From Unio delphinus (Eukaryota; Mollusca; Bivalvia; Unionida; Unionidae): a stretch of 64,000 bases of DNA. Positions 9,770 through 45,155 of the stretch are shown one piece after another (position 1 is the first letter of the stretch; each line of letters opens with the position of its first letter). Both the position numbers and the translations under genes were made by a program. The notes below the pieces were generated by a model. It saw nothing but the letters and a program-made list of their open reading frames with translations. It was not told the DNA's origin and did no database searches. Where the stretch lies: positions 3,341,501 through 3,405,500 of the forward strand of contig JAQISU010000070.1 in NCBI GenBank assembly GCA_029339505.1, read 5' to 3'.

Positions 9770-9776
9770 GTTGTTA

Positions 9777-20970: not shown

Positions 20971-21010
20971 ATGGGTTAACAATTCTTTTACGATGAAAAT
21001 AACTACAATT

Positions 21011-21671: not shown

Positions 21672-21688
21672 GGTATTATAAACATATT

Positions 21689-21925: not shown

Positions 21926-22239
21926 AGCAGCAGAGAGGGTGAGCCGGACAACATTTTTAGACAAGTATTCACTGAAATCACGCTTAAAATCAATGAAACC
22001 AATGACATCAGGCCCAAAAGTCAATGACATCAGGTCCCAAATGTGTGTGTGAATCATGGATTAGGTCCAAAAAAAAATTATGAAAAAATCAATGAAATTA
22101 ATGAAATCAAAAACTTTTCAACTATTACATTTTTTGGGAAAAAGGGACTACAACGTCGTTGTCACTACCCTCTCTGCTGCTAGAACTTTCAGTTGGGGTT
22201 AACCGAATATTTGATCCAGTCCGATACGATATCGTGTTC
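21926..22239. repeat. Left terminal inverted repeat of copy A
   Basis: 314 bp, inverse of 36,777-37,090. The outer 256 bp (to 22,181) form a module that itself begins and ends with inverted AGCAGCAGAGAGGGT. The inner 58 bp duplicate the 3' end of the ATPase gene, so a piece of ATPase code lies next to the penton gene here. Confidence 0.93.
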
Positions 22240-22265
22240 CAGACCTTGTCTGGGGACGAAAATCC

Positions 22266-23624
22266 TTAGGATTTCACAAACAGACTAATTTGTAAAACCT
22301 CCTCTTGTAAATCAATCAGATTATTAGACTGGTCAGTGAGTTTGAAATTAATTCTGGTTAATGAATTATTATGACATCGCATATAGACTGGATTCACCGG
22401 GGACTCAATTATTAAAAACCCTGGAGGAGCTGTTGGTGCAAATGAATACAAAATATATCCCTGCTGAGCTTGATTTGATCGTTCTAAATTTATTTGATAG
22501 CTTCCTTCGATCACATCACATACTAAATTGAGCGCAATCACCGTTGAAATATTCACATAGAACGGAGCAATATGCCTGCCACCACCGTCTGGGTCATTAT
22601 TATGGGTCAGGATAGTTGTTTGTGGTTGTGATGGTGTTTTTTTCCACGTATCATGGATTTTTTTGAAACCTTCATCGATGGCATCATCGAGAGATTTTTG
22701 TAGTTCTGAGATATTATATCCTGGAAGTTTGAATGGTGGAATATCTCCTATGCGGATCTTATAGTCTATTGCAAATAAATCTCTTGTTTTAGGACTACTG
22801 TCACCTAATACTTCTTGAATAATTTGTGAATGAAATGTTTCCATGTCATTGATGATTTTGTTACATGTTTCTACGACACTGATAAATTCATCTCGGGTGA
22901 GAGTGCCGGATCTAAGTGATATAAACAACAACGAAATATCGTTATTGAAAGCTGTGAAATTTTCAGTGATTTTATCCCGGTTAGCAAGATGATGAATAAG
23001 TCGTACTCTTTCATCATATTCTACTCTAATGAAAAAATATGACTTATCATAATATCTATAGCTTTTTATTGGATTATCAGATTTTATCCTGTCGGTGATA
23101 TAATCGGTTTTTTGAGGTTCTGGTAATTTAACGGTTTTTCCACCGGGTGGTAATTCAGGCCATCCTAGTACGGTTCTAATAGAACTCTGATAGATATCTA
23201 CGACGTATCCTTCTGTGCTTATTTCAATGGCAGATGATAGTGTCGGCACATGAACTGTTATAGCTATTTTTGATTCTTTTCCAGTAATCGATTTTATTCT
23301 ACGCGCGAATTCATCATTGATTTGTTCAATTTGATATGATCCGGTTGGTATGGAAACAACGTTCCAGTCTGGGGTACCGTCGGGTTTATTCTTATTTGCA
23401 AATACCAGTGAATTATTGGGTTGTTGACCACCAAATGATTTTGACCTAATATTTGGCCAACTGTGGTATACTCGTAGTTTTGCTAGCGCTATCTCCTTCA
23501 CTGGGACCGGAGAGGGGAAATTCACACTGAATTCTGGATTCGTTGAGGTTATTGAGATCATGCTTGTTTGTACTGGATTCGTGTTCTCCACTATTTGTTG
23601 AAGTAATTCCATCTGTGTTGTCAT
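22266..23624 (-). CDS. Putative penton/minor capsid protein
   Basis: About 452 residues. The first 110 (FSVNFPSPVPVKEIALAKL, then NNSLVF and a DWNVVSIPTGSYQIEQIN segment) form a conserved beta-rich block also intact in copy D. From family knowledge, Polinton-like elements carry a related protein in the capsid block, often with this FxVxFxxP / IPTGxY pattern. A middle region is helical (residues 200-310), and the C-terminal 130 residues are again beta-rich (ending LQISLFVKS). The start at 23,624 (MTTQMELLQ) is preferred over ATG 23,639 because copy D starts at the equivalent place. It is the outermost gene next to the left terminus. The exact capsid role is inferred from position and character, not proven. 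Confidence 0.65.
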   Translation of the reverse strand: MTTQMELLQQIVENTNPVQTSMISITSTNPEFSVNFPSPVPVKEIALAKLRVYHSWPNIRSKSFGGQQPNNSLVFANKNKPDGTPDWNVVSIPTGSYQIEQINDEFARRIKSITGKESKIAITVHVPTLSSAIEISTEGYVVDIYQSSIRTVLGWPELPPGGKTVKLPEPQKTDYITDRIKSDNPIKSYRYYDKSYFFIRVEYDERVRLIHHLANRDKITENFTAFNNDISLLFISLRSGTLTRDEFISVVETCNKIINDMETFHSQIIQEVLGDSSPKTRDLFAIDYKIRIGDIPPFKLPGYNISELQKSLDDAIDEGFKKIHDTWKKTPSQPQTTILTHNNDPDGGGRHIAPFYVNISTVIALNLVCDVIEGSYQINLERSNQAQQGYILYSFAPTAPPGFLIIESPVNPVYMRCHNNSLTRINFKLTDQSNNLIDLQEEVLQISLFVKS

Positions 23625-23829
23625 TGTTATTATACTCATGTTGTATTTCTAATTTTGACATCGCAGAATCATATATATCTACCATCGCTGAAAACTCACT
23701 CTCTGATATAATTGTATCATCGAGCGATGACGATATCAATGAGGATAATTGCGAGTATGCAGTGGACACAACATGAAATTGAATTATGTAGTCTTGTAGT
23801 TTCCGTTGGCTGCATGAGGATATTTTTTT
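23446..23829 (-). CDS. Overlapping frame, conserved in copy D; possible frameshift extension of the membrane protein
   Basis: An open frame of about 128 codons runs from the A7 run at 23,823-23,829, through the gap between genes, and over the first 60 codons of the penton-like gene. It encodes a Ser/Asn-rich sequence (ISSCSQRKLQDYIIQF, STAYSQLSSLISSSLDD, later LNNLNESRIQCEFP). Copy D keeps the same frame open at 43,445-43,759 with recognisably similar residues, including over the overlap. There is no convincing ATG of its own near its start. A -1 shift at A AAA AAA, in the frame of the membrane protein, would join the two. It could also be chance openness or an ancestral indel. Confidence 0.4.
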   Translation of the reverse strand, partial: KKISSCSQRKLQDYIIQFHVVSTAYSQLSSLISSSLDDTIISESEFSAMVDIYDSAMSKLEIQHEYNNNDNTDGITSTNSGEHESSTNKHDLNNLNESRIQCEFPLSGPSEGDSASKTTSIPQLAKY

Positions 23830-24089
23830 GTGATTATTGAAATAATTCCAGCGATTGTTGTTGCCGCAGAAATGCAAATTGGAACAGCTATCGGAGCCAT
23901 CATTGTCACTGAAGACAGTATAATACCAGCTCCGGTGATTACACCACTCACAGCGTACACAGTAACATCAATTGCGGTAATTCTCCTGCGATATTTTTTA
24001 ATTTTCAATTCATACTCCTCAGACAAGGTTTTGAGTCTAGTTTGATACTCTCTGACCTGATCATAGCGATATTGCGATGATGAAATCAT
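23784..24089 (-). CDS. Small membrane protein, two hydrophobic segments
   Basis: 101 residues. A basic, helical N-terminal part (residues 1-40, with KKYRRR just before the membrane) is followed by two hydrophobic stretches at about 42-62 and 66-86, rich in Ala, Ile and Gly. The predicted form is a hairpin in a membrane. Copy D encodes a clear homologue (43,770-44,099). It sits between the penton-like and coiled-coil genes. No family was recognised. The 3' end contains an A7 run, after which the frame changes if the overlapping frame is real. Confidence 0.7.
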   Translation of the reverse strand: MISSSQYRYDQVREYQTRLKTLSEEYELKIKKYRRRITAIDVTVYAVSGVITGAGIILSSVTMMAPIAVPICISAATTIAGIISIITKKYPHAANGNYKTT

Positions 24090-24118
24090 TTTTATTTTAA
24101 ATATGCTATCGTTTTCAA

Positions 24119-24952
24119 TTACGATTTACTTAAATTCGCTACGAATTCCACATACCACGTTGTTGAGACCCTAACCAAATGTTTATCAGTAGATGTGATT
24201 GTGAACTTTTCAGTTGTATTCTTGTCGATGATCGTTGAAATCGTATTATTGACCCCAGATGAACTGGACGATGAAATATTAAATTGAGACGATGGTGTTA
24301 CTAGTGTTAATCGAGAAATACCCTTAACGGTTGCAGTGATATCTAATGTGTTGTTTGTAGGTGTCCACTCAAATGATCCGTGTTGGATTGTGTATACTAC
24401 GTTGTTGGTTTTCTCATGAGGAATTTTTGTTTTTTCAATGGCTGTTATCATCCTCGAAAGATCACCTTTGATGCCTTCGATGGAAGTTTTCGTCTCATCG
24501 ATGGATTTTTTAATATCAGGGAGTTTTAGTTCAATTTTATCGAATGTAGTTCCAATAAATTTATCAATGATATTTCTACGAAATGCGGTAAACTGTTTTA
24601 TGTGTTCTTCGGTTTTAGATTGAAGTGTTGCTAGTTCTAACGCAGAATCGTTGAGAGTTTTAAATCGATCTGTAATCGTCGAAAAAAGTACACCCGGTTT
24701 GAGTTTACCCTGATCGGAAAATAACGCGATAGTATCCTCGATTGCGTTTTGTTGTTTAACTAAAATATCATCCAGAGAAATATTACTAGATTTCAATTTA
24801 CCCTGTTTGTCTTGAAATACTACTATTTCATTCGGGTCAACACTTGTTAAGTTCAACGTCTCAGTGATTTCATCTTTAATTTGTTTTGTTATATCACCGG
24901 TTGCAGTGTCATCGGGTTTGGGTTTCAGAGGTCTTCCCCAAATATCAATCAT
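24119..24952 (-). CDS. Coiled-coil structural protein candidate (fibre-like)
   Basis: 277 residues. The N-terminus MIDIWGRPL is conserved in copy D (MVNIWGR). Residues 40-180 are long helical heptad-like sequence with repeated LKLPDIKKSI/ETKTSIEGIK-type segments. The last 90 residues are beta-rich (GSFEWTPTNNTLDITA, ... VRVSTTWYVEFVANL) and could be a compact head. A helical shaft plus a beta head suggests a fibre or spike, but this is inference from layout only. Copy D has an extra helical stretch, so shaft length varies. The stop is 2 bp from the protease start region. Confidence 0.55.
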   Translation of the reverse strand: MIDIWGRPLKPKPDDTATGDITKQIKDEITETLNLTSVDPNEIVVFQDKQGKLKSSNISLDDILVKQQNAIEDTIALFSDQGKLKPGVLFSTITDRFKTLNDSALELATLQSKTEEHIKQFTAFRRNIIDKFIGTTFDKIELKLPDIKKSIDETKTSIEGIKGDLSRMITAIEKTKIPHEKTNNVVYTIQHGSFEWTPTNNTLDITATVKGISRLTLVTPSSQFNISSSSSSGVNNTISTIIDKNTTEKFTITSTDKHLVRVSTTWYVEFVANLSKS

Positions 24953-24953
24953 G

Positions 24954-25391
24954 TTATTGTAAAACTCTTTCTCTCTCTAAAAAGCGATTACTAGTGTAGT
25001 CATTAACGACAATATGAGGTGGTTTTCCCCTTGGGTTACCCAAGGAGTTAGAAATAGCGTCAAGGACATTTAACACTTCACTGCCGCATATTGGTGGGTC
25101 ATTGATTTGTTGTGTTGGTAGCGTAGAATACCAAGTCTTCATTGGAAGGGTTTTTATATAACGCAAAAACTCTTTTGGTGGGGCTAATCCATATGAATCG
25201 AAATAGACAATCCCACGTGGATCAATAGCGTATGCAACCCAGTGAGTTCCAGGTCCGGTGCTGTTATCGAGATTAATAATACCTGTTTCAGTTTTGTTTG
25301 GTTGATGTGGTAATTGATCTTTCATAAAAACACCTCTGAAATTTTTAATCACTAGTTTTTTAGCAGCATCCATTAAATCAAAATTGGACAT
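24954..25391 (-). CDS. Adenain-like cysteine protease (capsid maturation)
   Basis: 145 residues from ATG 25,391 (MSNFDLMDAAKK), a start whose N-terminus is conserved in copy D. The frame is open further upstream to 25,535, but that part overlaps the repeats ending the preceding gene. Catalytic pattern of the adenovirus protease family (C5/Ulp1-like): His50 in GTHWVAY, Asp65 in YFDSYG, Gln95 and Cys102 in PPICGSEV. Family members cut structural precursors inside the particle. Length is close to the shorter Polinton proteases. Copy D has a shifted but otherwise similar version. Confidence 0.87.
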   Translation of the reverse strand: MSNFDLMDAAKKLVIKNFRGVFMKDQLPHQPNKTETGIINLDNSTGPGTHWVAYAIDPRGIVYFDSYGLAPPKEFLRYIKTLPMKTWYSTLPTQQINDPPICGSEVLNVLDAISNSLGNPRGKPPHIVVNDYTSNRFLERERVLQ

Positions 25392-25429
25392 TGGAACCAT
25401 CGAAGATTTGGGAACCATAGGTTCCTCAA

Positions 25430-25969
25430 TTAATAAACCGTTCCTGGTAGTCTCAGGCCTGATCCGTGAACGGATCTCCCGCTGTACCATGAATACGGGG
25501 TTCCTGGTAGTCTTAGACCTTTTCCGCTGTACCAAGAATACGGGGTTCCTGGTAGTCTTAGACCCAATCCTTGAACGAATCGTCCCTTTTTTTTATATCC
25601 TTGTCCAGTTGCCTTTTTCAACGCCATTCCTGCTGCAGTACCAACGGCTCCTAACGCTGCTGCTTTAGCCACCGCTGGGGCTACTGCTGCAATCAATGCT
25701 GGTATCGCAGCTAACAATGGAAATATACCGCCTGTTTTCATCATATTTTTAATAGCAGCCGCAGAGAGAGTAATCTGAACTCCCTTTTTATCCTTGAAAG
25801 CATCATTGAAATGTTTCACCTGACGAGTTGTCAGCGATAATTTATTTTCACCACCAGTCATTTGGCTGGGTTTCAACGTGATTGTGGTTCCACATTTTTT
25901 AGCCGATTCTGATTGCAATTTTTTGATTTGACCAGGAGTTAACGTAACACTAATAACACTATATGACAT
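25430..25969 (-). CDS. Putative membrane-active capsid protein (pVI-like) with Pro-Gly-Thr repeats
   Basis: 179 residues. The N-terminal 70 contain two similar halves (LTPGQIKKLQ...TTITLKPSQM and LTTRQVKHFN...VQITLSAAAI), a pattern I recall from capsid blocks of Polinton-like elements. Residues 80-125 are an Ala-rich hydrophobic helix (GGIFPLLAAIPALIAAVAPAVAKAAALGAV) that could insert into membranes. The C-terminus has three copies of an LRLPGTPYSWYSG-like unit. It lies between the protease and major capsid genes. The pVI-like assignment rests on position, the amphipathic/hydrophobic helix and possible protease sites. Confidence 0.6.
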   Translation of the reverse strand: MSYSVISVTLTPGQIKKLQSESAKKCGTTITLKPSQMTGGENKLSLTTRQVKHFNDAFKDKKGVQITLSAAAIKNMMKTGGIFPLLAAIPALIAAVAPAVAKAAALGAVGTAAGMALKKATGQGYKKKGRFVQGLGLRLPGTPYSWYSGKGLRLPGTPYSWYSGRSVHGSGLRLPGTVY

Positions 25970-26018
25970 TATATATAATTGATTGATTCTAATTCAATGA
26001 AAAATCGAGAAAAATCGT

Positions 26019-27437
26019 TCAAAGATTTTCTACTGGGGCATCTACCACTCTCATTCTTCCACCAACACCTTCGAGTAGCATTGATTTATCACTGAGAATG
26101 ACAGCAACCGCTCTATAATCAGCAATAGCACCACGAGTCACATTAGCTCTAAAGTGTATATCAACAACTGACTGTCTTGTCAAATCGAGATGTTCCAGTG
26201 AGAAGTAGTAGATCGGATACAGATTTTTAAAATCAAATTGTGATATTTGCAAACCAGTATCGACATTTTGATCGCGTGCCATAAATGACAACAGACGATG
26301 ATAAACTCGTGCAATATGATTTTCTGTGTAATTAAGTTGTATATCCTCAGATGGTTCCTGCTGGCCGTTTATTCTCAGTGAGACGTCTTTCACACCTAAT
26401 TGATCAAATATCATATGACTGAAACGTTGATTGCCAACTCGTGCGGTATCCTGTAACGCAATAAATATATGACGTGGCGCAGAAACGCCCTGATTTGATG
26501 CTAGGTTCCAAGTGAATAACCCGTTGATATTTGATTGTTTCACATCTGTACTCACGGTTAGCCAACTCAACAACGACTTTCCTCCTTGGTCCATAAATGA
26601 TAGTAATCGTCCTTCTGCGGTGATTGCTGGAGTCAACACTGGCATCCACAATGATATTTTTGTTAAATTGACTTTACCAGCATCAGCATCTGGATTTGCA
26701 GCATTTGCTGGAATCCTCCAAATTGCGTCGTTATCATCACTTTTTCGTACAAGCGATACTGTATGCTTCGCCCCGTAGATAACTTTTCTGACGTTTCTAC
26801 AGAATCCAAAAATATGATGCAGTGGAATCGCACATGAAAATGATTTACGCCCTACTCCCAACATTGCGTTTCGTGTTGCGGCTCCTAGATTGAAATTAGG
26901 ATCGTTGTTTATAATCATATCCTCGATACCAGCAGGAGCAGGGTTAGGAGCAGCACGATCATTTGGTCGTCTTATAATAAATGGATTTCCTCCAGCGGTA
27001 TTCTTACCATCTTTTGCAAACATCATAGAAGGTCCTGCTGATCTTGTATAATCATCAGAATATCTCGCTAACCCGATTATTGTTGTAGCCACATCAACAT
27101 CACGATCTATGGACTCAATTTCTTTTCCATCAATGAGATATCTAGCACTCTCAAATAGCGCCATAATACCATTATTGACAAAACCGACTTGAGTACCAGC
27201 TGGATACGGTGCTGGTACAGCAGGAGTATCAGCAGCTGTTACAATTTCTCCTTCTACTTCAATAAATGCTTCACAGGGTAAAAAGTATTTACTGGTATCA
27301 TGGACTTGAAGATCAATTCTTGCTCGACTATTTGAGTCTATGGCATGATAGGCGTAATATTGATAATCGCGTACAGAATCATTCTTGGGGACTGGGGCGT
27401 CTATATCAAATGCTGGATCAGATGATTTTTTGAACAT
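26019..27437 (-). CDS. Major capsid protein, double jelly-roll type
   Basis: 472 residues. The sequence shows beta-strand-rich halves and the hallmark segment around residues 195-230 (IPLHHIFGFC, then VIYGAKHTVSLVRKSDDNDAIWR), which I recognise from the DJR-like capsid family of Polinton-like elements. The C-terminus (YPIYYFSLEHLDLTRQSVVDIHFRA and LLEGVGGRMRVVD) is repeated almost unchanged in the truncated copy D. It has the expected length for this group and no breaks. The product would form the pseudohexameric capsomer. It lies in the middle of the morphogenesis block, as usual. Confidence 0.88.
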   Translation of the reverse strand: MFKKSSDPAFDIDAPVPKNDSVRDYQYYAYHAIDSNSRARIDLQVHDTSKYFLPCEAFIEVEGEIVTAADTPAVPAPYPAGTQVGFVNNGIMALFESARYLIDGKEIESIDRDVDVATTIIGLARYSDDYTRSAGPSMMFAKDGKNTAGGNPFIIRRPNDRAAPNPAPAGIEDMIINNDPNFNLGAATRNAMLGVGRKSFSCAIPLHHIFGFCRNVRKVIYGAKHTVSLVRKSDDNDAIWRIPANAANPDADAGKVNLTKISLWMPVLTPAITAEGRLLSFMDQGGKSLLSWLTVSTDVKQSNINGLFTWNLASNQGVSAPRHIFIALQDTARVGNQRFSHMIFDQLGVKDVSLRINGQQEPSEDIQLNYTENHIARVYHRLLSFMARDQNVDTGLQISQFDFKNLYPIYYFSLEHLDLTRQSVVDIHFRANVTRGAIADYRAVAVILSDKSMLLEGVGGRMRVVDAPVENL

Positions 27438-27491
27438 TTTATTCTATTTATCAGAGTCTAAATAGTGAAATCGTAAACGATTTTTCCATTT

Positions 27492-27923
27492 TCATCTACG
27501 TAGTTTTTTAAGGCCACTTCCTGCTATCATGTTTGCAATATTGCTTTGGTCCCCTTGATTTACCATCGACGCTAGTTTTTCATCTACTGCGTTATTTATT
27601 ATTTTACTAACACTTGCAGGCATTTCTTCTGTAGACGGTAACGGTTTCTTTTTTCGCCCCACTAATGATGTTATTTTATCCTTCGCAGTTGAAAACGCTT
27701 TCCCGGCAAGATCTCCAACAGTACTAATACCCTTATCACGAATAACATCAATGGCTTTCATTGATAACTGTTTAGCTAACGGCATCACTTTTGGGGCCAT
27801 TCTTGAAAAGAATCCTAAAATGGTATTGCCGAGGCCATCTCCGTAGTATGCTCTATAAACTGGAAACCGTGAATTAACTACATAGACGAGGGTTGGTTTA
27901 TCATGATTGTAGTGTACGATCAT
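27492..27923 (-). CDS. Small basic structural protein candidate
   Basis: 143 residues. The N-terminal 25 residues are followed by YYGDGLGNTILGFF, then a helical basic middle and a C-terminus ending AGSGLKKLRR. The layout (a short leader, a Gly-Asp-Gly-Leu-Gly segment, a hydrophobic/basic helix) resembles core or minor capsid proteins next to the major capsid gene in Polinton-like elements, some compared with adenovirus core peptides. Both GxGL segments could be protease cleavage sites. No enzymatic motif. Confidence 0.55.
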   Translation of the reverse strand: MIVHYNHDKPTLVYVVNSRFPVYRAYYGDGLGNTILGFFSRMAPKVMPLAKQLSMKAIDVIRDKGISTVGDLAGKAFSTAKDKITSLVGRKKKPLPSTEEMPASVSKIINNAVDEKLASMVNQGDQSNIANMIAGSGLKKLRR

Positions 27924-27956
27924 TATTATAAAAACAATAGTGTTTTCAATTGTTAT

Positions 27957-29084
27957 TTAATCACTATGATACCCATTTGCTAACTCGTCAATGAAATCTC
28001 GATAGGTTTTGATATCCATGATACCGCCGGCAAATAACCGTCTACAGATATCAGCTGCTTCATTAATTATTTCTGGAGAGTTATTTCCAGCTCGTTTTCC
28101 TCCGATGAGAACATCTAATCGTGATATATCATTGATAACACTATCAGGACAAATGTTTCCAATCCTTAGATTTCCTAATCCACTTCCGCTATAGCCAGCT
28201 GCTTCATCTAGTTTGTCTGTATCCGTGGTTTGTAAATAATCAAGAGTATCATCATCATCATCATCATCACGTGGTATTTGTTGTTTTTTAGGTTCTTCTT
28301 GTTTTTTTTGTCTCCGTGTTGGTGTTTGACGTCGTTCTTCTAAATCATCATCATCAGGTGGTAGTTGTTGTCTTTTTTGTCTTCTTGTTTGTCTACGTGT
28401 TGGTGTTTGACGTTTTAGTTCTTGCCGTTCTTCTATTTCTCGTTGTCGCTCTTCTATTTGTTCTCTTTTATAATAACTAATTCCCTTTTTAAATTCCTTG
28501 TATCCTATCTCATCCTTATTCAAACGACCAATCCCCTTATTTAGTTTATACAAATAATCGAACCAATCATTACTTGATATTCTATCATTTTTATACTCGT
28601 CCTTTAAAAAATCTTTTTTTGAATTATAGCTTTGAGCAGCAAAATTACCAAAGGCTTGATAATCCTTTGATTTCAATAAACTAGGTTTTTTTATTAATAT
28701 TTTAGCATGATCAGTAAATTTATTCAACAGAGAAACAGTCGTTTTTTTCGGATCAGTTTTTTCAGTTTGTTCAGTTTTCGCTGCTATTTTTTCGAGTACA
28801 GAAATAAGACCCTCTTCCTTTCTTTTACCGTCAGGATCATCTCCCAGTATAGTACGCTCTACCCCCTTCGTTGCTGTGGTTACTGGTTTAAACAATTCTT
28901 CAGACCCCAGAGCAAAATCAGTTTGTAAACTCTGTCGTTGTTGCAGTTTATTTCTTACAGAGTCACGAATTGGTATAAATTTCTTAATTGCATCTAGTCG
29001 CTCACGAGCCAATCGGGTTGTTAATGCTTCATTGACCATTATTTGAAATCGCAAACTATTTTTCAATTGCAAAACACTTGACAT
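27957..29084 (-). CDS. Charged structural protein candidate with Arg/Gln-rich repeats and Asp runs
   Basis: 375 residues. The first 190 are helical. Residues 195-270 are very rich in Arg, Gln and Lys with repeated QTPTRRQ units. Two Asp runs follow (PPDDDDLEERR and RDDDDDDDTLDY). Then YSGSGLGNLRIGN and a final helical domain of about 80 residues. The Asp runs are encoded by (ATC)n and vary easily. No family recognised. It is the first gene of the capsid block downstream of the duplicated hairpin region, and the ATG lies inside the first 130-bp repeat. Confidence 0.55.
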   Translation of the reverse strand: MSSVLQLKNSLRFQIMVNEALTTRLARERLDAIKKFIPIRDSVRNKLQQRQSLQTDFALGSEELFKPVTTATKGVERTILGDDPDGKRKEEGLISVLEKIAAKTEQTEKTDPKKTTVSLLNKFTDHAKILIKKPSLLKSKDYQAFGNFAAQSYNSKKDFLKDEYKNDRISSNDWFDYLYKLNKGIGRLNKDEIGYKEFKKGISYYKREQIEERQREIEERQELKRQTPTRRQTRRQKRQQLPPDDDDLEERRQTPTRRQKKQEEPKKQQIPRDDDDDDDTLDYLQTTDTDKLDEAAGYSGSGLGNLRIGNICPDSVINDISRLDVLIGGKRAGNNSPEIINEAADICRRLFAGGIMDIKTYRDFIDELANGYHSD

Positions 29085-29345
29085 GTCGGATGATTTTTTA
29101 ACACAGTCATGGAAGTGTTATTTCATCGTGAGACACCTTCTATCATTGATGGAGCAAGTCACATAATTGTATATAAAATAAATAATACTGTGAGTTGCTC
29201 CACTTTTTTGACATGTCGGATGATTTTTGATATGGTCATGGAAGTGTTATTTCATCCTATAACAGCTTCTATCAGTGATGAGGAAAGTCACATAATTGTA
29301 TATAAAATTAATAATACTGTGACTTTCCTCACTTTTCCATTGACC
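29078..29345. promoter_or_regulatory. Duplicated 130-bp unit with hairpin, upstream of the capsid block
   Basis: Two direct copies (from 29,081 and 29,211) share ACATGTCGGATGATTTTT and GTCATGGAAGTGTTATTTCATC. Each then has an inverted repeat around a TATATAAAAT-containing loop: 29,152-29,200 (stem GAGCAAGTCAC / GTGAGTTGCTC, one mismatch) and 29,280-29,330 (GAGGAAAGTCAC / GTGACTTTCCTC, perfect). The stems differ between copies in ways that keep pairing. The position suggests a promoter or operator for the capsid genes, or a cis replication/packaging signal. Confidence 0.5.
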
Positions 29346-29505
29346 ATCCATTAAAGGTCCATAGATTTTTTATTCACTGATTTTGACATTTTAAATCAAA
29401 AAATGCTAAAAAAATGAAAATCTCTTGAGGGTCGGAATGATAATGGGTCGGGCAATCAAAAAATGATTAATGGTCGGTCAGTCAAAATTGTTCATTTTCT
29501 TGAAT
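29346..29505. other. Non-coding gap
   Basis: AT-rich, with two GGTCGG-containing stretches (near 29,434 and 29,470). No gene seen. Confidence 0.5.
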
Positions 29506-29883
29506 TCATGCTCGTAGGTTTCTAATTTTAGAGTTGACTTCTTTTTTCAATTCGTATTCGTTACCTAATTCTTTTCGTATTCCCTCTACGATAGTATACA
29601 ACGGGACGAACACACTGATGTCACTGGAAAATGAAAGAGAGTCTTTAATAGAATTCTGAATTTTTTTGATGAGTGCATATTTCTTTGGTAGCATATACTT
29701 GTTAGTGCTAACTCCGTATTCAATATCCTGAAAATCAGACACAATTTGGTCAGGATTTAATCCATCTGATAGTTTGATATCCTGATTTTTCAATTTTGCT
29801 ATTTCAACTATGATGCTATTCATGTTTTCAGAATTCATTATTCTATAAGTATGACATATCTCTAATTGGAAATTATGACGCAT
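29506..29883 (-). CDS. Unknown small helical protein
   Basis: 125 codons from an ATG that overlaps the stop of the HNH gene (TAATG). A second start, MNSENMNS at codon 16, is as plausible. The sequence is helical, with no Cys pairs, membrane segment or known motif (DIKLSDGLNPDQIVSDF, ... VFVPLYTIVEGIRKEL). Absent from copies B and E, which end before this point. Function unknown. Confidence 0.5.
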   Translation of the reverse strand: MRHNFQLEICHTYRIMNSENMNSIIVEIAKLKNQDIKLSDGLNPDQIVSDFQDIEYGVSTNKYMLPKKYALIKKIQNSIKDSLSFSSDISVFVPLYTIVEGIRKELGNEYELKKEVNSKIRNLRA

Positions 29884-30377
29884 TAGACATAACTAAATTG
29901 AACTTTTTGCCCCGTCTTTTTTGAAATAGTCGATCGATAAATCCCCTCTGCAACTTTTCGTACTGACGGTCCACAAATATCGAAAAATTTACCGGCTTCA
30001 TATAATGATTGAAATATTTTTTCTTCATTAGTTGTTGTATTCAAAGATGTCACAGGTCTCTTCCAAACCGTTTTGCAAGTGCCAGCTCTTCCTCGTTTGG
30101 AATTCTCACTCAGTGTGATAGCCTGCAGATTTGATACAGAATTATTCTTTGGATTAGAATCCTTGTGATAAATAACAAAACCATCTTTGATCAATCCATT
30201 AAAACATTCAAATACGAAACGATGAATGAGATAATTTTTCTTTCCAACAGTAAACTTCAAATACCCTTGATTATTCACAACACCGACCGGTTTCTTTAGT
30301 CTACGGTTTCTGACAGTACCATCACTGGATGCTTCATATTTTGTAATCACTGGATGTGGTCTGAATTCTTGGTCCAT
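29883..30377 (-). CDS. NUMOD/HNH homing-type endonuclease
   Basis: 164 residues. An N-terminal NUMOD4-like strand region (ITKYEASSDGTVRNRR) is followed by the HNH core (HRFVFECFNG, VIYHKDSNPKNNSVSNLQ) and a C-terminal helix-turn-helix DNA-binding module like NUMOD1/IENR1 (NEEKIFQSLYEAGKFFDI...GQKVQFSY). Such enzymes nick or cut DNA and often spread themselves. In copy E the core reads VIDHIDSDSQNN, nearer the usual form. Copy A has Tyr where the first Asp stood, so activity may be reduced. It is free-standing, not in an intron. Confidence 0.8.
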   Translation of the reverse strand: MDQEFRPHPVITKYEASSDGTVRNRRLKKPVGVVNNQGYLKFTVGKKNYLIHRFVFECFNGLIKDGFVIYHKDSNPKNNSVSNLQAITLSENSKRGRAGTCKTVWKRPVTSLNTTTNEEKIFQSLYEAGKFFDICGPSVRKVAEGIYRSTISKKTGQKVQFSYV

Positions 30378-30427
30378 ATATACTATTCTATTGTTTGTCT
30401 AATTCAGTGTTTGGTTCAATAATTACA

Positions 30428-30754
30428 TCACTGGAAAATCTTTCGATATAGTCTTATGATTTTATCCTTGATGTTGTCAGGGTCAAGGGCCTTTTCAGGG
30501 TCATAATTTCTGATAGATTGTCCATTTTTTATTCTTTTATCATAATAACGCTTCAATTCCCTATATCGCTTACCACCACAATCAATACACAATTGTGATC
30601 TTCCCTTGACCCCAACCCCACATCGAATACAGGGTAACGGACCAAGACTTCCACGTCGAAAACTTTGCATATGATACCTACAGCATTCATTTTTTCTGCA
30701 TGATTTGTTACACGGGGTTACATTTCCCATCATGAGCCATTTGCAGTGATTCAT
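30428..30754 (-). CDS. Small Cys-rich zinc-binding protein
   Basis: About 108 residues from the start MNHCKWLM, conserved in copies A, B and E; an extra upstream ATG (30,772) exists only in A and E. It has two metal-binding halves: C-x(n)-C..C/H in the first 30 residues and CIRC ... LCIDC at about 45-63. A basic helix follows (GGKRYRELKRYYDKR). It is divergent from the polymerase gene with a 42-bp gap holding a TATATAG-like box (30,789-30,795). It may bind nucleic acid or regulate early transcription; this is inferred only from the Cys pattern and position. Confidence 0.65.
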   Translation of the reverse strand: MNHCKWLMMGNVTPCNKSCRKNECCRYHMQSFRRGSLGPLPCIRCGVGVKGRSQLCIDCGGKRYRELKRYYDKRIKNGQSIRNYDPEKALDPDNIKDKIIRLYRKIFQ

Positions 30755-30796
30755 TATACATAAAACTTTCATTTAAATGTTTGTTTTTTATATAGC

Positions 30797-33700
30797 ATGA
30801 AGGAGTTCAAGAGATTGACTTCGAAAAATGCTAAATTCAATGCTGATAGAGAGTTCAAGAGATTATTGAAAATCAATCCTAGATTTAATCTCGATAGACC
30901 AAAAAAACGTCAAAAACGTCCAAGAGACGGAAACATGAAAGAGTTTAAGAGATTATTAAAAATCAATCCTAGATTTAATCTCGATAGACCCAAAAAACGT
31001 CCAATAGACGGAAACAAACGTAACAAACGTCCAAGAGACGGAAACATGAAAGAGTTTAAGAGATTATTGAAAATCAATCCTAGATTTAATCGCGATATAC
31101 CCAAAAAACGTCCAAAACGCACAATAGACGGAAACATGAAAGAGTTTAAGAGATTATTGAAAATCAATCCTAGATTTAATCGCGATAGACCCAAAAAACG
31201 TCCAAAACGCACAATAGACGGAAACATGAGATCATCATGGAAGGATGCTCAATTCAATCTTGATATAGTTTCTAATACACCCAAGAATAAAATTCTTGAT
31301 AAACCCATCAGAGACTGTTTTAATGAATTCAAGCGTGATGGAGCATCTTATTGTTGGTCAACATTTCGAATTGATGGTGTTGTTGACGCTACCATGAATG
31401 ATGAAAAGGCAGCAGTGATCATTTCACGTGTTGGGGAAAAAAGTCATTTTTTCCGAATCAAATTCATTATCCGTGAGAATGGCAAATGGATTATTAAGGA
31501 TAAATTTGAACCCATTCTCAAGGGCAAAAAAACTGTCACCGTGAATCAGGATTCAAAACCGGGAATTTTGACTGGAATTGATAAACCCTACTACGAAAGA
31601 TCTTATCCTGTCACAGCAGTTGTTTACGGGATCTATCCGCTCAATGAAAAACCTGATATTTCAAAACTAGCACCCATGAAATATTCGACAGGGCTCAATT
31701 GTGTAGCAGAACGAATAATAGAACACTTCACAAATGCGTCCCGGGGGAATAAACTCACTGATCTAAGACGAAAAAAAATAACCGAGTGGGAGTTCACGGT
31801 AAAAGAGCATGGAGCAACAATTCAGGATATAACTAAATTAGAAACATCATTAAGATTTCCAATATCGGTAAGGACAATCACCGGTGAAGTATTAAAAGAA
31901 CCGAAATATCAATCAAAAAAAGGAAACCCCATTGAAATTATTGATCATAACGCGCACGCGTGGTCATCTGCAGTAACAATATTTCCACGGGATAGAACCG
32001 TAAAATATCTATCCCCAGCAGGGTTGGGGCCTGAAGAATGTTTTACCGAGCAGAAATTATTTGATGCTATTTACCATTTGAGTAAAAACGATCCTGTGTC
32101 AGCGTGGCTATTTCATAGTAATTCAGACGAAGAATGTAGATTTGATCAGGTTGTAAGGCCCAACGGAGAATTATACCGTACTGAAGAACTGCAGAATCAA
32201 ATGAAACAACTAGCTAGTGAGTTTTCTGAGGACGGAGAAGAAGACGATCAATTATTAGCAAACTGTTTTACAGTACCATCCATTGCAGCACATTTTGCTA
32301 GAAAGAAAAACGCGTGGAAACCAACACGAAGTGAGTTTTTATCAGATGTCAAATTGTCCTGTCTTGAATACAGCCATGGAGGATTATGGAACACAAAATA
32401 CACCGCTGATACCGTTATTTCAGTTGATATGATTGCGTGTTATCCAGGAAGTTTTCTTGGGTATGGAGAATGCGAGAAATATTTCAAACGATTTGGACAC
32501 CCTACACACGAAATGACCCGTGTTGCTATTAATGGACCACTTCCTGATTTTGATTTAACCGGATTCGCTTGTGTAGTATCATTTGAAATGGCTGAAGGGC
32601 TTCATCCGTGTAGTTATCTTTGGATTGGTAAACACATGTCTGAAAAACACTGGATGCCAATAGTGTTATTACGGTATATGCTTGATTGTAAGATGTTAAA
32701 ATCATTAATTGTCAGTGAAGCAATTATATCCTATCGGGCACAGAAATCAGTCTGGTTACCACAACCTGATCTAGAAAAAATAATTAGCGAAGAGCGAAAA
32801 CTGTTTCCTGATTTTAATGAACAACAAATCATGGATTGGTCCAGACAGTTATTTGAAATCAGAAACAATGAAGCAAAAAATCTTGGACGAAGAATAATCG
32901 GTAAATTTACCCAAGGTGGCAAAGATGATAATACGAAATATTCTTCACGATTGATTATAGACAACGCTGAATACGATTTTGTAATGGCGGATTTAACGAA
33001 TAAGGGCCTATATGTCAATCGTAAGGACGCATTTATGTCCGATGGAACCAAATTGGGTACAATTGTTACCTACAATGATGGATACCATCCGCAGTACACA
33101 CACTTAAGAGCTTCTATGCTCGGTTATGCTTCTATCAATCTGTTTTCAATGATCAATAGATTTCCTACTACCGCAGTTAGAGTTGCTACTGACTCATTTT
33201 ACATAAATAGCAAAATGGCTGATTTTAAGGCTACTGGCAACGAGAAATGGGGATCATGGAGAATTAAGAAAGAAATGATTCATGATTATATTCCATCAGC
33301 AGATGTTACCATTGAAAATAATTACTTAGAAAGCAATCAGTGTTCAGAATTTTCTAGTGCACCACCGATTTCTGATCCAATATGCCTGTATAAAACAGTT
33401 TATTTAAACGGCTGTGGTGGGTCAGGAAAAACAACCCGGGCAATTGAGTTATTTCGTGTTTCCAATCCAAACATGATTGTGCTAACACCAACTCATAGAC
33501 TTGCAAGAGAAATGATACAGAGAGGGGTAAGTGCTTGCACTTATCATAGTTTCTTTAGATGGAAGGGAGATAAATGGACTCCTGAGCGCATGGGAGAGAA
33601 ATTTATTCCTGAAATTATCATTTGGGATGAAATAGACACAGTGTCCGAAGATGTCTTAAAAATATTTCTTGAGTGGTTGTTATTGAAGAATACAAAAATC

Positions 33701-34666
33701 GTCATGTGCAATGATCACGGGCAACCACCGCCATTTGTCGGTGCATCCCCCCATGAATGGCTAAAGGGTTTTGTAGACTATTATGAAGAAATTGATACCG
33801 ATCATAGATCACTTGATAATGAATTAAAAGAATTGAAGAAACTAATTAGATTACAACCGGATAGAATCCAGTGTGAAATAACCCGTGAAATAATTTCGGA
33901 AACTCCCATGAATGAGTTTTGGGAAATGTGGAGACCAAACGATTTAATCATTGCAAGTAGAAAAATAGTCAGGGACACACTTCAGATGAAGTTATTTGAA
34001 TTGCATAAACAAAAATTTGCAACACTTCCAGTACCTCTTTGTTATAGGCCATCGGATACGCGAAAACAGAACATCGAAGTTGATATTCCAGGACAAAGTG
34101 AAAAACAGAATTTAGTATTAAATGATATTGTGCTGGTTGATATCAATGTTGTTGAAGATGCATTGCGTGCTAATAAATCCCCGTGGACGCTAGGTTATGC
34201 AGCGACGATACATTCTTCACAGGGATTGACTATATCGGATACAACTCTTTGGATGGTAGATAATCGCATAGAATGGTCGAATTTAGTCTATCTCGCAGTG
34301 TCCAGAGTACGAAAAATAAATCAACTTCGAAGAATTGTCCTGACAGAGTCAGGCGATGATGAAATCATTGGCGATGATGAAATCATTGGTGACGATAATG
34401 ATATTATTGATAAAAAACTCTCCGGTTACAAACAGCAGGACAAAAAAAAACAACGAGAATTTGATATTGATGCTGAATTAATAATCACTTTGAAGAAACA
34501 ACAGAATAATCACTGCGCGAGTTGCAATTGTATAATGCGTTGGCAGTATTCGGATAAGGATCCTCGCCAATTCACCGTAGACAGAAAAAATAACAATCTC
34601 GGTCATGTCAGAAATAATGTGATGTTGACTTGTCTTGAGTGCAATAGACGCAAGGGTGCTAGTTAA
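30797..34666 (+). CDS. Replication protein: PolB-like polymerase fused to SF1 helicase and HNH nuclease
   Basis: 1,289 residues, intact. Residues 1-140 are basic tandem repeats found only in this copy. From about 290 to 530 is a conserved region (GLNCVAERIIEHF, DHNAHAW) before the palm. Polymerase motif A is SVDMIACYP with Asp544; motif C is ATDSFY with Asp799. The SF1 helicase follows: Walker A NGCGGSGKTTR (Lys878), THRLAREM, Walker B WDEI (Asp944-Glu945), motif III NDHGQPPPF (972-980), motif V TIHSSQGLT (1137-1145) and motif VI AVSRVRK. A C-terminal HNH domain has CxxC at 1240/1243 and CLECNRR at 1279. No exonuclease motifs were recognised. In motif III copy A has Asn972 where copies E and gamma have Gly. 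I recall similar fusions annotated as hypothetical proteins in other eukaryotes, but cannot check. Confidence 0.88.
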   Translation: MKEFKRLTSKNAKFNADREFKRLLKINPRFNLDRPKKRQKRPRDGNMKEFKRLLKINPRFNLDRPKKRPIDGNKRNKRPRDGNMKEFKRLLKINPRFNRDIPKKRPKRTIDGNMKEFKRLLKINPRFNRDRPKKRPKRTIDGNMRSSWKDAQFNLDIVSNTPKNKILDKPIRDCFNEFKRDGASYCWSTFRIDGVVDATMNDEKAAVIISRVGEKSHFFRIKFIIRENGKWIIKDKFEPILKGKKTVTVNQDSKPGILTGIDKPYYERSYPVTAVVYGIYPLNEKPDISKLAPMKYSTGLNCVAERIIEHFTNASRGNKLTDLRRKKITEWEFTVKEHGATIQDITKLETSLRFPISVRTITGEVLKEPKYQSKKGNPIEIIDHNAHAWSSAVTIFPRDRTVKYLSPAGLGPEECFTEQKLFDAIYHLSKNDPVSAWLFHSNSDEECRFDQVVRPNGELYRTEELQNQMKQLASEFSEDGEEDDQLLANCFTVPSIAAHFARKKNAWKPTRSEFLSDVKLSCLEYSHGGLWNTKYTADTVISVDMIACYPGSFLGYGECEKYFKRFGHPTHEMTRVAINGPLPDFDLTGFACVVSFEMAEGLHPCSYLWIGKHMSEKHWMPIVLLRYMLDCKMLKSLIVSEAIISYRAQKSVWLPQPDLEKIISEERKLFPDFNEQQIMDWSRQLFEIRNNEAKNLGRRIIGKFTQGGKDDNTKYSSRLIIDNAEYDFVMADLTNKGLYVNRKDAFMSDGTKLGTIVTYNDGYHPQYTHLRASMLGYASINLFSMINRFPTTAVRVATDSFYINSKMADFKATGNEKWGSWRIKKEMIHDYIPSADVTIENNYLESNQCSEFSSAPPISDPICLYKTVYLNGCGGSGKTTRAIELFRVSNPNMIVLTPTHRLAREMIQRGVSACTYHSFFRWKGDKWTPERMGEKFIPEIIIWDEIDTVSEDVLKIFLEWLLLKNTKIVMCNDHGQPPPFVGASPHEWLKGFVDYYEEIDTDHRSLDNELKELKKLIRLQPDRIQCEITREIISETPMNEFWEMWRPNDLIIASRKIVRDTLQMKLFELHKQKFATLPVPLCYRPSDTRKQNIEVDIPGQSEKQNLVLNDIVLVDINVVEDALRANKSPWTLGYAATIHSSQGLTISDTTLWMVDNRIEWSNLVYLAVSRVRKINQLRRIVLTESGDDEIIGDDEIIGDDNDIIDKKLSGYKQQDKKKQREFDIDAELIITLKKQQNNHCASCNCIMRWQYSDKDPRQFTVDRKNNNLGHVRNNVMLTCLECNRRKGAS
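30840..31228 (+). repeat. Tandem repeats encoding the basic N-terminus of the polymerase
   Basis: Four to five units of about 75-96 bp, each encoding MKEFKRLLKINPRFN, a Arg/Asp step, then KKRPKR-type basic residues and DGN. Copies B and E instead have a single MEEFERLSKI..W unit. The DNA units are nearly identical, so the expansion is recent. Confidence 0.88.
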
Positions 34667-35603
34667 GCCCATGGGGTGGCAATTGAGTATCCTCGGGTAT
34701 CACTTGTAATTGTTGTCTAGTAAAACCCCGTTGAGGGGCAGTTGAATCCAGTTTATAGATTGGAGTTCTACCCGTAGATCGTGTTATACTAGATATCTTA
34801 TGCGTAGTGACGCTCCAAATAGGATCAGTAGCCCTTTTTCTATCTCCTTCAAGCTCTCCTGGTTCGTATAAGTACCTCACAATGACATTACTACCAAGAA
34901 TTGGTTCTTTGAAATCTTTTTGTGGTTTTTCAGGTATTGACTTCTTTTTAATCGCGTTGATAGGTTTCATGTTGATGGTTCTAGTAATCTCGTTATTCAG
35001 TGCGGTAACTACACCTGGTAATCTCTTAACCCATTCACGGGATCTTTTTTCTTGGATGAATTCTTTTGCATATTGATATCCAAATAACCGCTCAGCAAGG
35101 GTTTTATTAAACCGTTCTACAATGGCCTGATCACGATGCAGTGCAGTATGCCCTCGTCTGATAGCGACATTGTGATATTTCATTGTAAATAACACTGCAC
35201 CCTGAAATTCCTTGCCCGGGTCAACTTGTAACATATTTGGCCAGTGCAGTGGACTCCTTCGATAAATCCTTTCAAATGCAGAAGCGACTTCAGTGGCCGA
35301 TTTTGTTTTTAACGGTTCTGCTTCTTTGTATCGACTTGCAATATCAACTACAGTTAACGCATATTTGTAACCACGATCATGTGGCAGAAATAATAGATCA
35401 GCCTGATGAACTTCATTGGGTCCGGTTACATCAAAATGCGAGAATTGAATTTGTTTAGGAGGTGGTAGATAAATTTGCCATAGTGCCTGTTTGGATAACC
35501 AATGAGCCGCAGTGGTTTTTCTCACTTTTGCGGCGCTAGCAAGTTTACTGATTGCAGCGTTACCCTTCCAGTATCCTCTTGGGGAATAATAAATAGATTC
35601 CAT
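34659..35603 (-). CDS. Retroviral-type DDE integrase
   Basis: 314 residues from MESIYYSPRGYW, the start shared by all copies (GTG-initiated extensions upstream are unlikely). Integrase core, numbered with seven extra upstream codons: Asp76 in HQADLLFLP, Asp135 in QVDPGKEF, Glu170 in AIVERFNKT, giving the D-D(35)E spacing. A C-terminal SH3-like domain (VRYLYEPGELEG, DPIWSV, GRTPIYKLD) matches the rve-type integrases of Polintons. It would insert the element and create the 5-bp duplication seen here. It overlaps the convergent polymerase gene by 8 bp and starts 8 bp after the PLA2 stop. Confidence 0.93.
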   Translation of the reverse strand: MESIYYSPRGYWKGNAAISKLASAAKVRKTTAAHWLSKQALWQIYLPPPKQIQFSHFDVTGPNEVHQADLLFLPHDRGYKYALTVVDIASRYKEAEPLKTKSATEVASAFERIYRRSPLHWPNMLQVDPGKEFQGAVLFTMKYHNVAIRRGHTALHRDQAIVERFNKTLAERLFGYQYAKEFIQEKRSREWVKRLPGVVTALNNEITRTINMKPINAIKKKSIPEKPQKDFKEPILGSNVIVRYLYEPGELEGDRKRATDPIWSVTTHKISSITRSTGRTPIYKLDSTAPQRGFTRQQLQVIPEDTQLPPHGLN

Positions 35604-35610
35604 GTTGTTA

Positions 35611-36140
35611 TTAATTACCAGCACCTAACATCAATTTACTTTTCATAGCCGATTTTATCAAAAAGGAAGCCAATTTTTCTTTGAAGGATTTATCAGTGAT
35701 AGAATTCAACGCATGAATTAATTTCACATCTGCTAGATGCCTGTGTTGCAAATTGCTGCTTTTATAAGCAACATCATGAAGGTGACAGGCCTTATCAATA
35801 GCGTTTATTGGTTCCTAACCGGGTCGGGGCTGATTTTGATCATTGAGTCTGATATCAAGTCTTGTTCCCGGTCCACAATAACTATACCCTGGAAGGTGCT
35901 TTTCTCCCGGGTATTTTGCCCATGGGGTTCCAGGGAGTTTTGCTAATTTGGCAGCGATATCACCTCCTCGTTTTTTTTTAAAGGTTCCTTGGGTTCCTTG
36001 GGTTTAGAAACAAATCTAAATTTCTTTGTACTACACTGTACGCATTTACCAGAAAGCGCTGATCGGTTATTTTTAGTTGTAATCGTCGTCAAGTCATCTG
36101 TGCCAGTACGCGCCTTACACTTCACGCAATATAGATCCAT
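35611..36140 (-). CDS. Zinc-ribbon/phospholipase A2-like protein; two frames, plus an internal TAG
   Basis: The zero frame (36,140 to 35,943) encodes a zinc ribbon (YCVKCK ... KCVQCSTKKFRFV) and a basic linker. The frame then changes at A AAA AAC, and the -1 frame encodes GGDIAAKLAKLPGTPWAKYPG, the PLA2 calcium loop YCGPGTRLD and the catalytic His-Asp (HLHDVAYKSS). In parvoviruses this fold in a capsid protein helps the particle escape endosomes; in this element it would serve entry by analogy. A TAG at 35,815-35,817 separates the calcium loop from the catalytic His, so copy A's PLA2 is probably inactive. Copy E has no such stop. Either the shift is programmed or it is an old A-run indel. Confidence 0.75.
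35970..35976 (-). promoter_or_regulatory. Candidate -1 frameshift site A AAA AAC (copy A)
   Basis: On the minus strand the heptamer is in the X XXY YYZ register relative to ATG 36,140: zero-frame codons AAA (35,975-35,973) and AAC (35,972-35,970). A -1 slip continues directly into the PLA2 frame. The nearby inverted CCTGGAA/TTCCAGG could form a stem downstream. Confidence 0.5.
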
Positions 36141-36157
36141 AATTTATGTATAGAGAT

Positions 36158-36817
36158 ATGAATATAATTGATTTTTCAGCGACTAAAACAAGAGAACCAG
36201 TGAAGCATCATGCAGCGCTACCAAACTATATCCGCGCAATTATAATCGGACCATCTGGATCCGGTAAAACGCAATTGTTGCTCAATTTAATAATGAGATG
36301 GATGAAGTGGGATAAGTTGTATTTAATTGCCCCTAGCGTAGACGACCAACGATGCTATGAAGTGCTAAAAGATTTTAATGAAAACGCTTCAGAGATTGCC
36401 GGCGAGGATGTTATTGAATTTATAACCAATATTGACGAGGCGCCATCAGTAGAAGACCTCGATGGAAGTATCAACAATTTAGTTGTATACGATGATGTCA
36501 TGTTAGATAAACAAAAAAATCCTGCTAGAATATTTTCCCGAGGCAGGCATCAAAACACGGACGTGATCTATGTCACTCAACGATACACTCAGATTCCAAA
36601 AGTGATTAGAGATAACTGTAATATGCTTGCTGTATTCAACGGCGTTGATACACATACGCTACGAAATATTTGGCAGACATGGTGTTCTGATATGGACTTC
36701 AATCAATTTAGAAATTTCTTTAGTCATGCTCAGTCCGCCCCCCACGGATTTGTAACAATAAATTTACATGACCCTCGAACACGATATCGTATCGGACTGG
36801 ATCAAATATTCGGTTAA
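36158..36817 (+). CDS. Packaging ATPase (FtsK/HerA family, A32-like)
   Basis: 219 residues from MNIIDFSATK, the start shared with copies B and E; an ATG 12 bases upstream is also in frame. Walker A is GPSGSGKT at residues 31-38, Walker B NNLVVYDDVM around 106-115, and a TQRY motif (sensor-like) follows RGRHQNTDVIYV. These are the features of the poxvirus A32-like packaging ATPases found in Polinton-like elements, which pump DNA into capsids. Intact. Its 3' end lies inside the right inverted repeat, so a piece of it is duplicated at the left end. Divergent from the zinc-ribbon/PLA2 gene. Confidence 0.92.
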   Translation: MNIIDFSATKTREPVKHHAALPNYIRAIIIGPSGSGKTQLLLNLIMRWMKWDKLYLIAPSVDDQRCYEVLKDFNENASEIAGEDVIEFITNIDEAPSVEDLDGSINNLVVYDDVMLDKQKNPARIFSRGRHQNTDVIYVTQRYTQIPKVIRDNCNMLAVFNGVDTHTLRNIWQTWCSDMDFNQFRNFFSHAQSAPHGFVTINLHDPRTRYRIGLDQIFG

Positions 36818-37090
36818 CCCCAACTGAAAGTTCTAGCAGCAGAGAGGGTAGTGACAACGACGTTGTAGTCCCTTTTTCCCAAAAAATGTAATAGTTGAAA
36901 AGTTTTTGATTTCATTAATTTCATTGATTTTTTCATAATTTTTTTTGGGACCTAATCCATGATTCACACACACATTTGGGACCTGATGTCATTGACTTTT
37001 GGGCCTGATGTCATTGGTTTCATTGATTTTAAGCGTGATTTCAGTGAATACTTGTCTAAAAATGTTGTCCGGCTCACCCTCTCTGCTGCT
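36777..37090. repeat. Right terminal inverted repeat of copy A
   Basis: Inverse of 21,926-22,239, with about one difference seen in the outer 256 bp. The outer module is 36,835-37,090. Followed by the AATAA duplication at 37,091-37,095. Confidence 0.93.
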
Positions 37091-37384: not shown

Positions 37385-37391
37385 TAACAAC

Positions 37392-41704: not shown

Positions 41705-41746
41705 GCTATAATTAAAACAAGTATTTAAAAAAGAAAATTATATGTA

Positions 41747-43759: not shown

Positions 43760-43769
43760 AATATGGAAT

Positions 43770-44099: not shown

Positions 44100-44108
44100 A
44101 TAAGTTGT

Positions 44109-45131: not shown

Positions 45132-45155
45132 GTTCTTGTAAAAATCTTTGATTTT

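Follow-up and report, generated by a model that had tools for sequence, protein, structure and literature searches.

A recently amplified endogenous element, very probably a Polinton-like virus of the pPolB-S1H (Tlr1) type, in the genome of the bivalve Unio delphinus

The 64,000-nucleotide stretch analysed here (the window; Unio delphinus assembly GCA_029339505.1, contig JAQISU010000070.1, positions 3,341,501 to 3,405,500, forward strand) contains a virus-like insert of 15,165 bp at window positions 21926–37090, which carries its own capsid, integration and copying genes. This insert is very probably a recently amplified, endogenous member of the pPolB-S1H (Tlr1) type of Polinton-like viruses, one whose copies have multiplied in a mollusc, and a classical Polinton or Maverick reading does not fit it. 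In the pPolB-S1H ("Tlr1-like helicase") plan, cited here, like all published systems below, from the available portions of the sources, a protein made of terminal protein (TP), vOTU, palm and superfamily-1 helicase (S1H) parts replaces the classical protein-primed family-B polymerase (pPolB) in Polinton-like viruses and in Tlr1 (PMC11071308). A preliminary description of the window had claimed a virus-like element with the Polinton/adintovirus core plan, a gene set unlike that of classical Polintons, and a distinct, recently active lineage. The first two claims hold: a retrovirus-type (rve) integrase, a double-jelly-roll (DJR) capsid, an adenain-type protease and an A32/FtsK ATPase are all encoded, and the replicase is fused to a helicase and an HNH module. 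As to the third, recent activity stands, but the gene set is not unmatched, its replicase plan being that of pPolB-S1H (PMC11071308).

The insert, its target site and the older element that it interrupts are delimited by the following features:
21921..21925, target duplication AATAA (left), directly outside the left end
21926..22242, plus strand, left terminal inverted repeat, 317 nt, starting AGCAGCAGAG, with 2 differences from the right arm
36774..37090, minus strand, right terminal inverted repeat, overlapping the final codons of the ATPase gene
37091..37095, target duplication AATAA (right), directly outside the right end
21008..21925, minus strand, left part of the older host element (ATPase and start of PLA2), split by the insertion, from alignment to the insert
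37091..41967, right part of the older host element: rest of PLA2, integrase at 37426–38331 (plus strand) and a broken polymerase-helicase (minus strand)
1251..5463, duplicated copy of the older element with an empty target site, from self-alignment of the window

The two arm-to-arm differences lie at positions 144 and 315, counted from the outer end, and the termini read AG at the start and CT at the end. The inverted termini reported earlier are thus confirmed, with arms of 317 rather than 314 nt; the single difference reported for their outer 256 bp is borne out by the arm comparison, and the 5-bp AATAA duplication had been read correctly. The element also proved to be nested in an older relative, as had been proposed: 21008–21925 and 37091–41967 are the two parts of a broken element that is reversed relative to the insert and 77.9% identical to it over the main block. 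An empty site, which the preliminary description had suggested looking for, was found in the duplicated copy of this older element, which runs through the insertion point with a single target (~2152–2156) bearing one substitution. Specifically, window 1–2157 is 94.6% identical to 19808–21926, the left flank of the insert, and window 2152–5463 is 96.4% identical to 37091–40370, the right flank. The duplicated older element with its single, uninterrupted target therefore provides a clean empty site. The matching blocks (1–5463 versus 19808–21926 and 37091–40370; 94.6–96.4%) form a segmental duplication that comprises the older element and its surroundings, with one of the two copies lacking the insert.

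The insert has many close copies elsewhere. The species' own assembly (2.5 Gb in 1,246 contigs) was searched with the insert's 375-aa protein, its major capsid protein (MCP) and its left terminus; each of the three copy lists includes the window's copy and holds the best-scoring candidates only, so that the copy counts are minima and selection accounts for the high identities. The 375-aa protein is found in at least 109 places at 94–100% identity, without a stop in 61 of the 109 rows and with one in 48, and the MCP in at least 90 places at 97–100% identity, 80 of the 90 being free of stops. The best 40 of 1,181 left-terminus candidates are ~99.7–100% identical. Ten further copies, which are the first twelve 375-aa rows minus the window's own and one stop-bearing row, all show paired termini about where these were expected; each is flanked by a perfect 5-bp duplication whose sequence varies between sites, and the two termini of a copy differ from each other by 1–10 mismatches and 0–5 gaps. 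Additionally, nine further pairs, picked because both ends are among the best 40 left-terminus rows and therefore of low divergence by choice, span 15,100–15,333 bp with 0–2 terminal mismatches of 317; eight of the nine have a 5-bp duplication, and the ninth, located within a TA repeat, shows a 4-bp overlap. A 5-bp target duplication accordingly flanks 18 of the 19 further copies (19 of 20 with the window's own). Varied 5-bp duplications together with paired, near-identical termini show insertion by a 5-bp staggered cut at many sites, in some cases recently. Near-identical copies at many sites show that insertion in this genome has been repeated and, as had been claimed, recent.

Two other origins of these copies were weighed. 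That they multiplied through segmental duplication or gene conversion rather than integration is very improbable: such duplication does occur in the window (1–5463 versus 19808–40370), but the differing target duplications at 18 of the 19 other copies and the empty site speak against it, and multiplication by segmental duplication alone was rejected on the distinctness of the target duplications. Still less credible is an assembly artefact or contamination, for which there is little beyond the repeat density of the window. The sampled copies sit on contigs of 4.5–33 Mb with different flanks at each site, and an uninterrupted version of the surrounding older relative is present as well. An artefactual origin of the termini or the duplication, which had been named as a possible refutation, was rejected on the copies with their own flanks and on the empty site.

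Many copies of the 375-aa gene have a single TGA and a match that begins at query residue 2–4; these may be a subfamily with an altered 5' end rather than products of random decay.

The genes on which the identification of the insert depends are as follows:
22266..23639, minus strand, penton-like minor capsid protein, 457 aa (open reading frame, ORF; named from its position only)
24954..25490, minus strand, adenain/Ulp1-type cysteine protease, 178 aa (African swine fever virus protease S273R, E=5.2e-6, residues 55–116)
26019..27437, minus strand, MCP with a DJR fold by structure model
30797..34666, plus strand, replicase, 1289 aa, with basic N-terminal repeats, a vOTU-like part, a family-B palm, a superfamily-1 (SF1) helicase and a C-terminal HNH
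34659..35624, minus strand, rve integrase, 314 aa from an ATG ending at 35603 (PF00665, E=9.6e-8)
35611..36003, minus strand, PLA2-like domain gene, split in this copy by an in-frame stop (PF08398 in both pieces, E=0.0029, below cutoff, and 1e-5)
36143..36817, plus strand, A32/FtsK-type packaging ATPase (PF04665 Pox_A32, E=4.8e-12)

The open frames for capsid, protease, ATPase, integrase and replication genes reported earlier are present, including the polymerase-helicase-HNH and HNH_3 frames, and protein profile searches, which had been recommended, assigned the capsid, integrase, ATPase, HNH_3, helicase and DUF5679.

The replicase is a single 1289-aa ORF with polymerase motifs at residues 544–800 and helicase matches at 866–1173. 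The SF1 helicase lies C-terminal to the polymerase part (AAA_19 in 12 of 12 family members), and solved Pif1/RecD-type helicases match it. In the 12-member replicase alignment, the palm motif residues are invariant or nearly so, and motif C reads ATD, with Ala in place of the first Asp in all 12 members; the pattern RxATDS occurs in 44 of 54 replicase rows, the window's own included. When the low-confidence replicase model was compared with solved structures, phi29 polymerase took the top three places, with the structural alignment starting upstream of the palm, and OTU proteases matched the model where published pPolB-S1H proteins carry vOTU. No terminal-protein match was among the structure rows listed for this low-confidence model. 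In the exonuclease region (residues 380–540), the only conserved acidic columns are 517 and 524, and no DxE pair was seen. No Pfam DNA polymerase domain matched any of the 12 members at E<=1, and the replicase had no match among phage records. The family-B palm is assigned from sequence motifs, with fold support from the low-confidence model, and protein priming is putative.

The basic tandem repeats at 30894–31229 (unit ~EFKRLLKINPRFNLDRPKKRP), which form the replicase N-terminus, vary in number across ten sampled genomic copies.

The published systems closest to the insert are Tlr1 of Tetrahymena and the pPolB-S1H Polinton-like viruses, a likeness drawn from published descriptions and motifs rather than from a sequence tree. 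They share with it an rve integrase (Tlr1), a DJR capsid and an ATPase (PMC11071308, PMC4642659), and both the DJR capsid and the packaging ATPase, examined as Tlr1-type features, are present in the insert. In these viruses, as here, the first Asp of motif C is altered and the C-terminus carries a homing endonuclease, GIY-YIG or HNH (PMC11071308). Distinct from Tlr1, the insert has an animal host, probably a mollusc, and HNH instead of GIY-YIG; distinct from Tlr1 and the pPolB-S1H viruses, it has an additional PLA2, DUF5679, a free-standing HNH_3 and basic N-terminal repeats. OmPLV of Oxyrrhis marina is likewise an endogenous Polinton-like virus with a large helicase-polymerase fusion, but in OmPLV the helicase is N-terminal, the exonuclease has been retained and recombination relies on a tyrosine recombinase (PMC12721341), whereas here the helicase is C-terminal to the polymerase, not N-terminal, and the integrase is of the rve type. 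HelPol viruses also combine an unusual DNA polymerase with contigs of mixed similarity to adintoviruses (PMC11071296); set beside the insert by description only, HelPol (Buck et al. 2024) has remote similarity to cellular PolBc/Pol-delta (PMC11071296). According to the available portions of the literature, polymerase-SF1 helicase fusions are reported from elements of ciliates, algae and dinoflagellates and from transpovirons, and an SF1 helicase-GIY-YIG fusion is found in cryptophyte Polinton-like viruses, the Polinton-like viruses having 5–6 bp duplications (PMC12220804).

That the insert is merely a divergent classical Polinton/Maverick or animal adintovirus is improbable, even though several features point that way. 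The common plan of rve integrase, DJR capsid, adenain-type protease and A32/FtsK ATPase is shared; vertebrate Mavericks/Polintons have this plan of integrase, capsid, protease and ATPase together with inverted termini starting AG, and the AG...CT termini here resemble Maverick end motifs (PMC8097293). The rve integrase and inverted termini, examined as classical Maverick/Polinton features, are both present. Adintoviruses have an OTU-bearing family-B polymerase, hexon, penton and adenain proteins, and an rve integrase (PMC11071296). Against a pPolB-S1H assignment, an adintovirus entry has the top query TM-score for the capsid model among the best 50 viral structures (rank 3, 12% identity, query TM 0.63); a MELD virus entry stands at rank 20 with 10% identity. 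On the other side, the replicase carries a fused SF1 helicase and HNH, none of its 12 family members has a Pfam DNA polymerase domain, and motif C is ATD. The adintovirus definition, in the available part of its source and compared by description, is without a helicase fusion (PMC11071296), which is present here, and among Pfam matches at E<=0.1 an integrase chromodomain was not seen. Additionally, vertebrate Mavericks have (AG)3 or (AGT)2 ends and, where intact, 6-bp duplications (PMC8097293), whereas the insert starts AGCAGCAGAG, with 5-bp duplications in 19 of 20 copies. The 5 bp alone decides little because Polinton-like viruses are reported with 5–6 bp duplications. The classical Polinton was rejected on the replicase fusion and the 5-bp duplications, and the pPolB-S1H Polinton-like virus remains the preferred identification.

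The remaining core genes vary in how clearly they are recognised. The integrase exceeds the PF00665 cutoff narrowly (32.7 versus 32.6 bits) and has a D-D-E triad of putative catalytic residues; its Pfam scan at E<=0.1 returned rve only, and sequence comparison with the PDB gave nothing at E 0.01. The capsid profile likewise found nothing below E 0.8 in the PDB by sequence. The protease has a Pfam Peptidase_C5 match at E=0.003, below cutoff, and the 457-aa penton-like protein has no Pfam or PHROG match. PLA2-type lipases are known from some Polintons (PMC4642659). The inclusion of PLA2 in the earlier gene set stands in part: there is a PLA2 gene in the insert, but it is split by a stop, and the sole frame of at least 100 aa with a PLA2 domain (36959–37384) is chimeric, starting in the terminal repeat and stopping in the older element. 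The in-frame stop is missing from 10 of 10 other sampled copies.

We propose that the element would exist as linear double-stranded DNA bounded by inverted repeats. A protein-primed family-B polymerase with a fused SF1 helicase would copy it, and the vOTU-like part of this protein may cut free a terminal-protein-like segment at the N-terminus. The rve integrase would insert this DNA at loosely chosen sites through a 5-bp staggered cut, as the 5-bp duplications and the empty site show. The capsid protein (its fold taken from a model), the penton-like protein, the adenain-type protease and the A32/FtsK ATPase would build and fill the capsid; PLA2 may help the particle to cross membranes, and the HNH modules look like homing-endonuclease passengers.

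Whether the element spreads within or between cells is a separate matter, on which there are two proposals. It is rather unlikely, yet worth weighing, that the insert is a particle-free, capsid-encoding transposon that spreads only inside cells, with virion genes as passengers on their way out; since this proposal shares our identification of the element and departs from our reading in the mode of spread, the likelihoods of the two overlap. In its favour, only integrated copies were found, PLA2 is broken in the window copy and 48 of the 109 375-aa rows have a stop. Short-pattern scans of viral contigs with the MCP, the replicase, alignments of both, the ATPase and the integrase returned pattern matches and no relative, which also favours it; one short-pattern scan of genome contigs gave the same outcome. 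Against it, capsid frames are without stops in 80 of the best 90 places, PLA2 is stop-free in 10 of 10 other copies, and the 375-aa gene has a pooled ratio of nonsynonymous to synonymous polymorphism (pN/pS) of 0.31 against seven young copies (singly 0.21–0.60). Relative to older window copies, six comparisons of integrase, ATPase, polymerase and penton segments gave ratios of nonsynonymous to synonymous substitution (dN/dS) of 0.11–0.22, two of them with dS above 1, the integrase of the older host element giving 0.154. All these ratios partly reflect periods in which the copies evolved neutrally, and the young copies are non-independent. The other proposal, which we hold tentatively and at less than even odds, is that of a mollusc virus lineage that is still infectious and forms virions, has a polymerase-helicase-HNH replicase, colonises germ lines through its integrase, and represents the first animal branch of pPolB-S1H.

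Related sequences in other molluscs bear on host range. In the capsid tree, the window protein falls in a 15-row clade (98*) with sequences of Sinanodonta woodiana and Potamilus streckersoni, the latter's rows having 45% of columns filled; this placement makes a freshwater mussel the probable host. The same 37,906-base contig is listed for one capsid (P0026) and one replicase (P0059), which hints that capsid and replicase genes travel together elsewhere too. Replicases labelled Elysia crispata (P0083, P0084 and P0085) form a clade separate from the window's. By their sequences, they suggest several mollusc lineages of such elements, unless the contigs derive from food algae; if the infectious lineage proposed above is real, they would mark a mollusc-wide host range.

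In the available portions of the literature, the replicase type is described mainly from viruses of single-celled organisms; here it is in a mollusc genome and has recently spread to many places. In a protist-genome survey that included published animal capsids, nearly all Maverick-Polintons fell in one capsid supercluster, and the metazoan genes outside it were, in the part available, cnidarian only (PMC10120064). Maverick sequences are annotated in bulk in bivalve genomes, amounting to 1.69% of one Mercenaria assembly, for example (PMC8905726), so repeat libraries may contain DNA of this kind without naming it. Among the literature matches listed, with subscription papers mostly outside them, there was no mollusc element, amplified in its host, that combines this replicase with an rve integrase and a capsid module, and no title on such an element in animals. 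A detailed match to a named family, the other refutation foreseen, applies in part: the replicase plan is already described as pPolB-S1H, and its combination in a mollusc was not found among those matches. With a multi-copy, recently mobile element of this type in a mollusc, both the animal host range of these viruses and continued particle formation become directly testable: tissue and population data can be compared with its copies at distinct target sites, its empty site, its near-identical termini and its open capsid frames.

The insert has nine further frames:
23784..24089, minus strand, 101-aa protein with hydrophobic segments by eye (ORF; all Pfam matches below cutoff)
24119..24952, minus strand, 277-aa protein (ORF; homologous piece at 44112–45053)
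25430..25969, minus strand, 179-aa small protein with a repeated GLRLPGTPYSWYSG motif (ORF and sequence)
27492..27923, minus strand, 143-aa protein adjoining the MCP upstream (ORF)
27957..29084, minus strand, 375-aa protein (109 scored places in its own genome)
29506..29883, minus strand, 125-aa protein (ORF)
29883..30377, minus strand, free-standing HNH_3 homing-type endonuclease, 164 aa (PF13392, E=5.8e-12)
30428..30772, minus strand, 114-aa protein with CxxC pairs, zinc-ribbon-like by eye (ORF; one Pfam match below cutoff)
35943..36143, minus strand, DUF5679 protein, 66 aa (PF18930, E=1.4e-13)

The 179-aa protein with GLRLPGTPYSWYSG repeats is possibly a core or membrane-active virion protein, and DUF5679 is presumably a zinc ribbon. 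In the Potamilus streckersoni protein P0033, a sequence similar by eye to the 143-aa protein stands ahead of the MCP start.

Other relatives lie elsewhere in the window:
5647..10961, degraded relative in opposite orientation, its homologous place likewise without the insert
42206..46312, minus strand, capsid half of another or a rearranged older element (penton, 277-aa protein, protease and MCP C-terminus; stops present)
57126..63627, relative near the window's end (ATPase, integrase, polymerase-helicase and HNH), 88.9% identical to the insert over the main block

With several relatives and a capsid half in one window, the 64-kb stretch is a cluster of such elements. The capsid half has the same orientation as the insert and the opposite one to the adjoining interrupted element, so the surroundings are pieces of more than one older element, or of one that was rearranged; a stretch resembling a terminal inverted repeat at 41969–42000 is weak (E=0.40). 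The window also contains a tandem array of a 40-bp unit at 15077–18038 (~74 copies, 88% matches) and two arrays of 84-bp units at 12856–14559 and 50040–51522, which are C2H2 zinc finger-like with HTGEKP linkers by eye. A separate duplication relates 11240–14412 to 48326–51522 at 84% identity, and short repeats of a TGGGGCGAAACGTCCA-like unit lie at 51519–51612 and 56459–56569.

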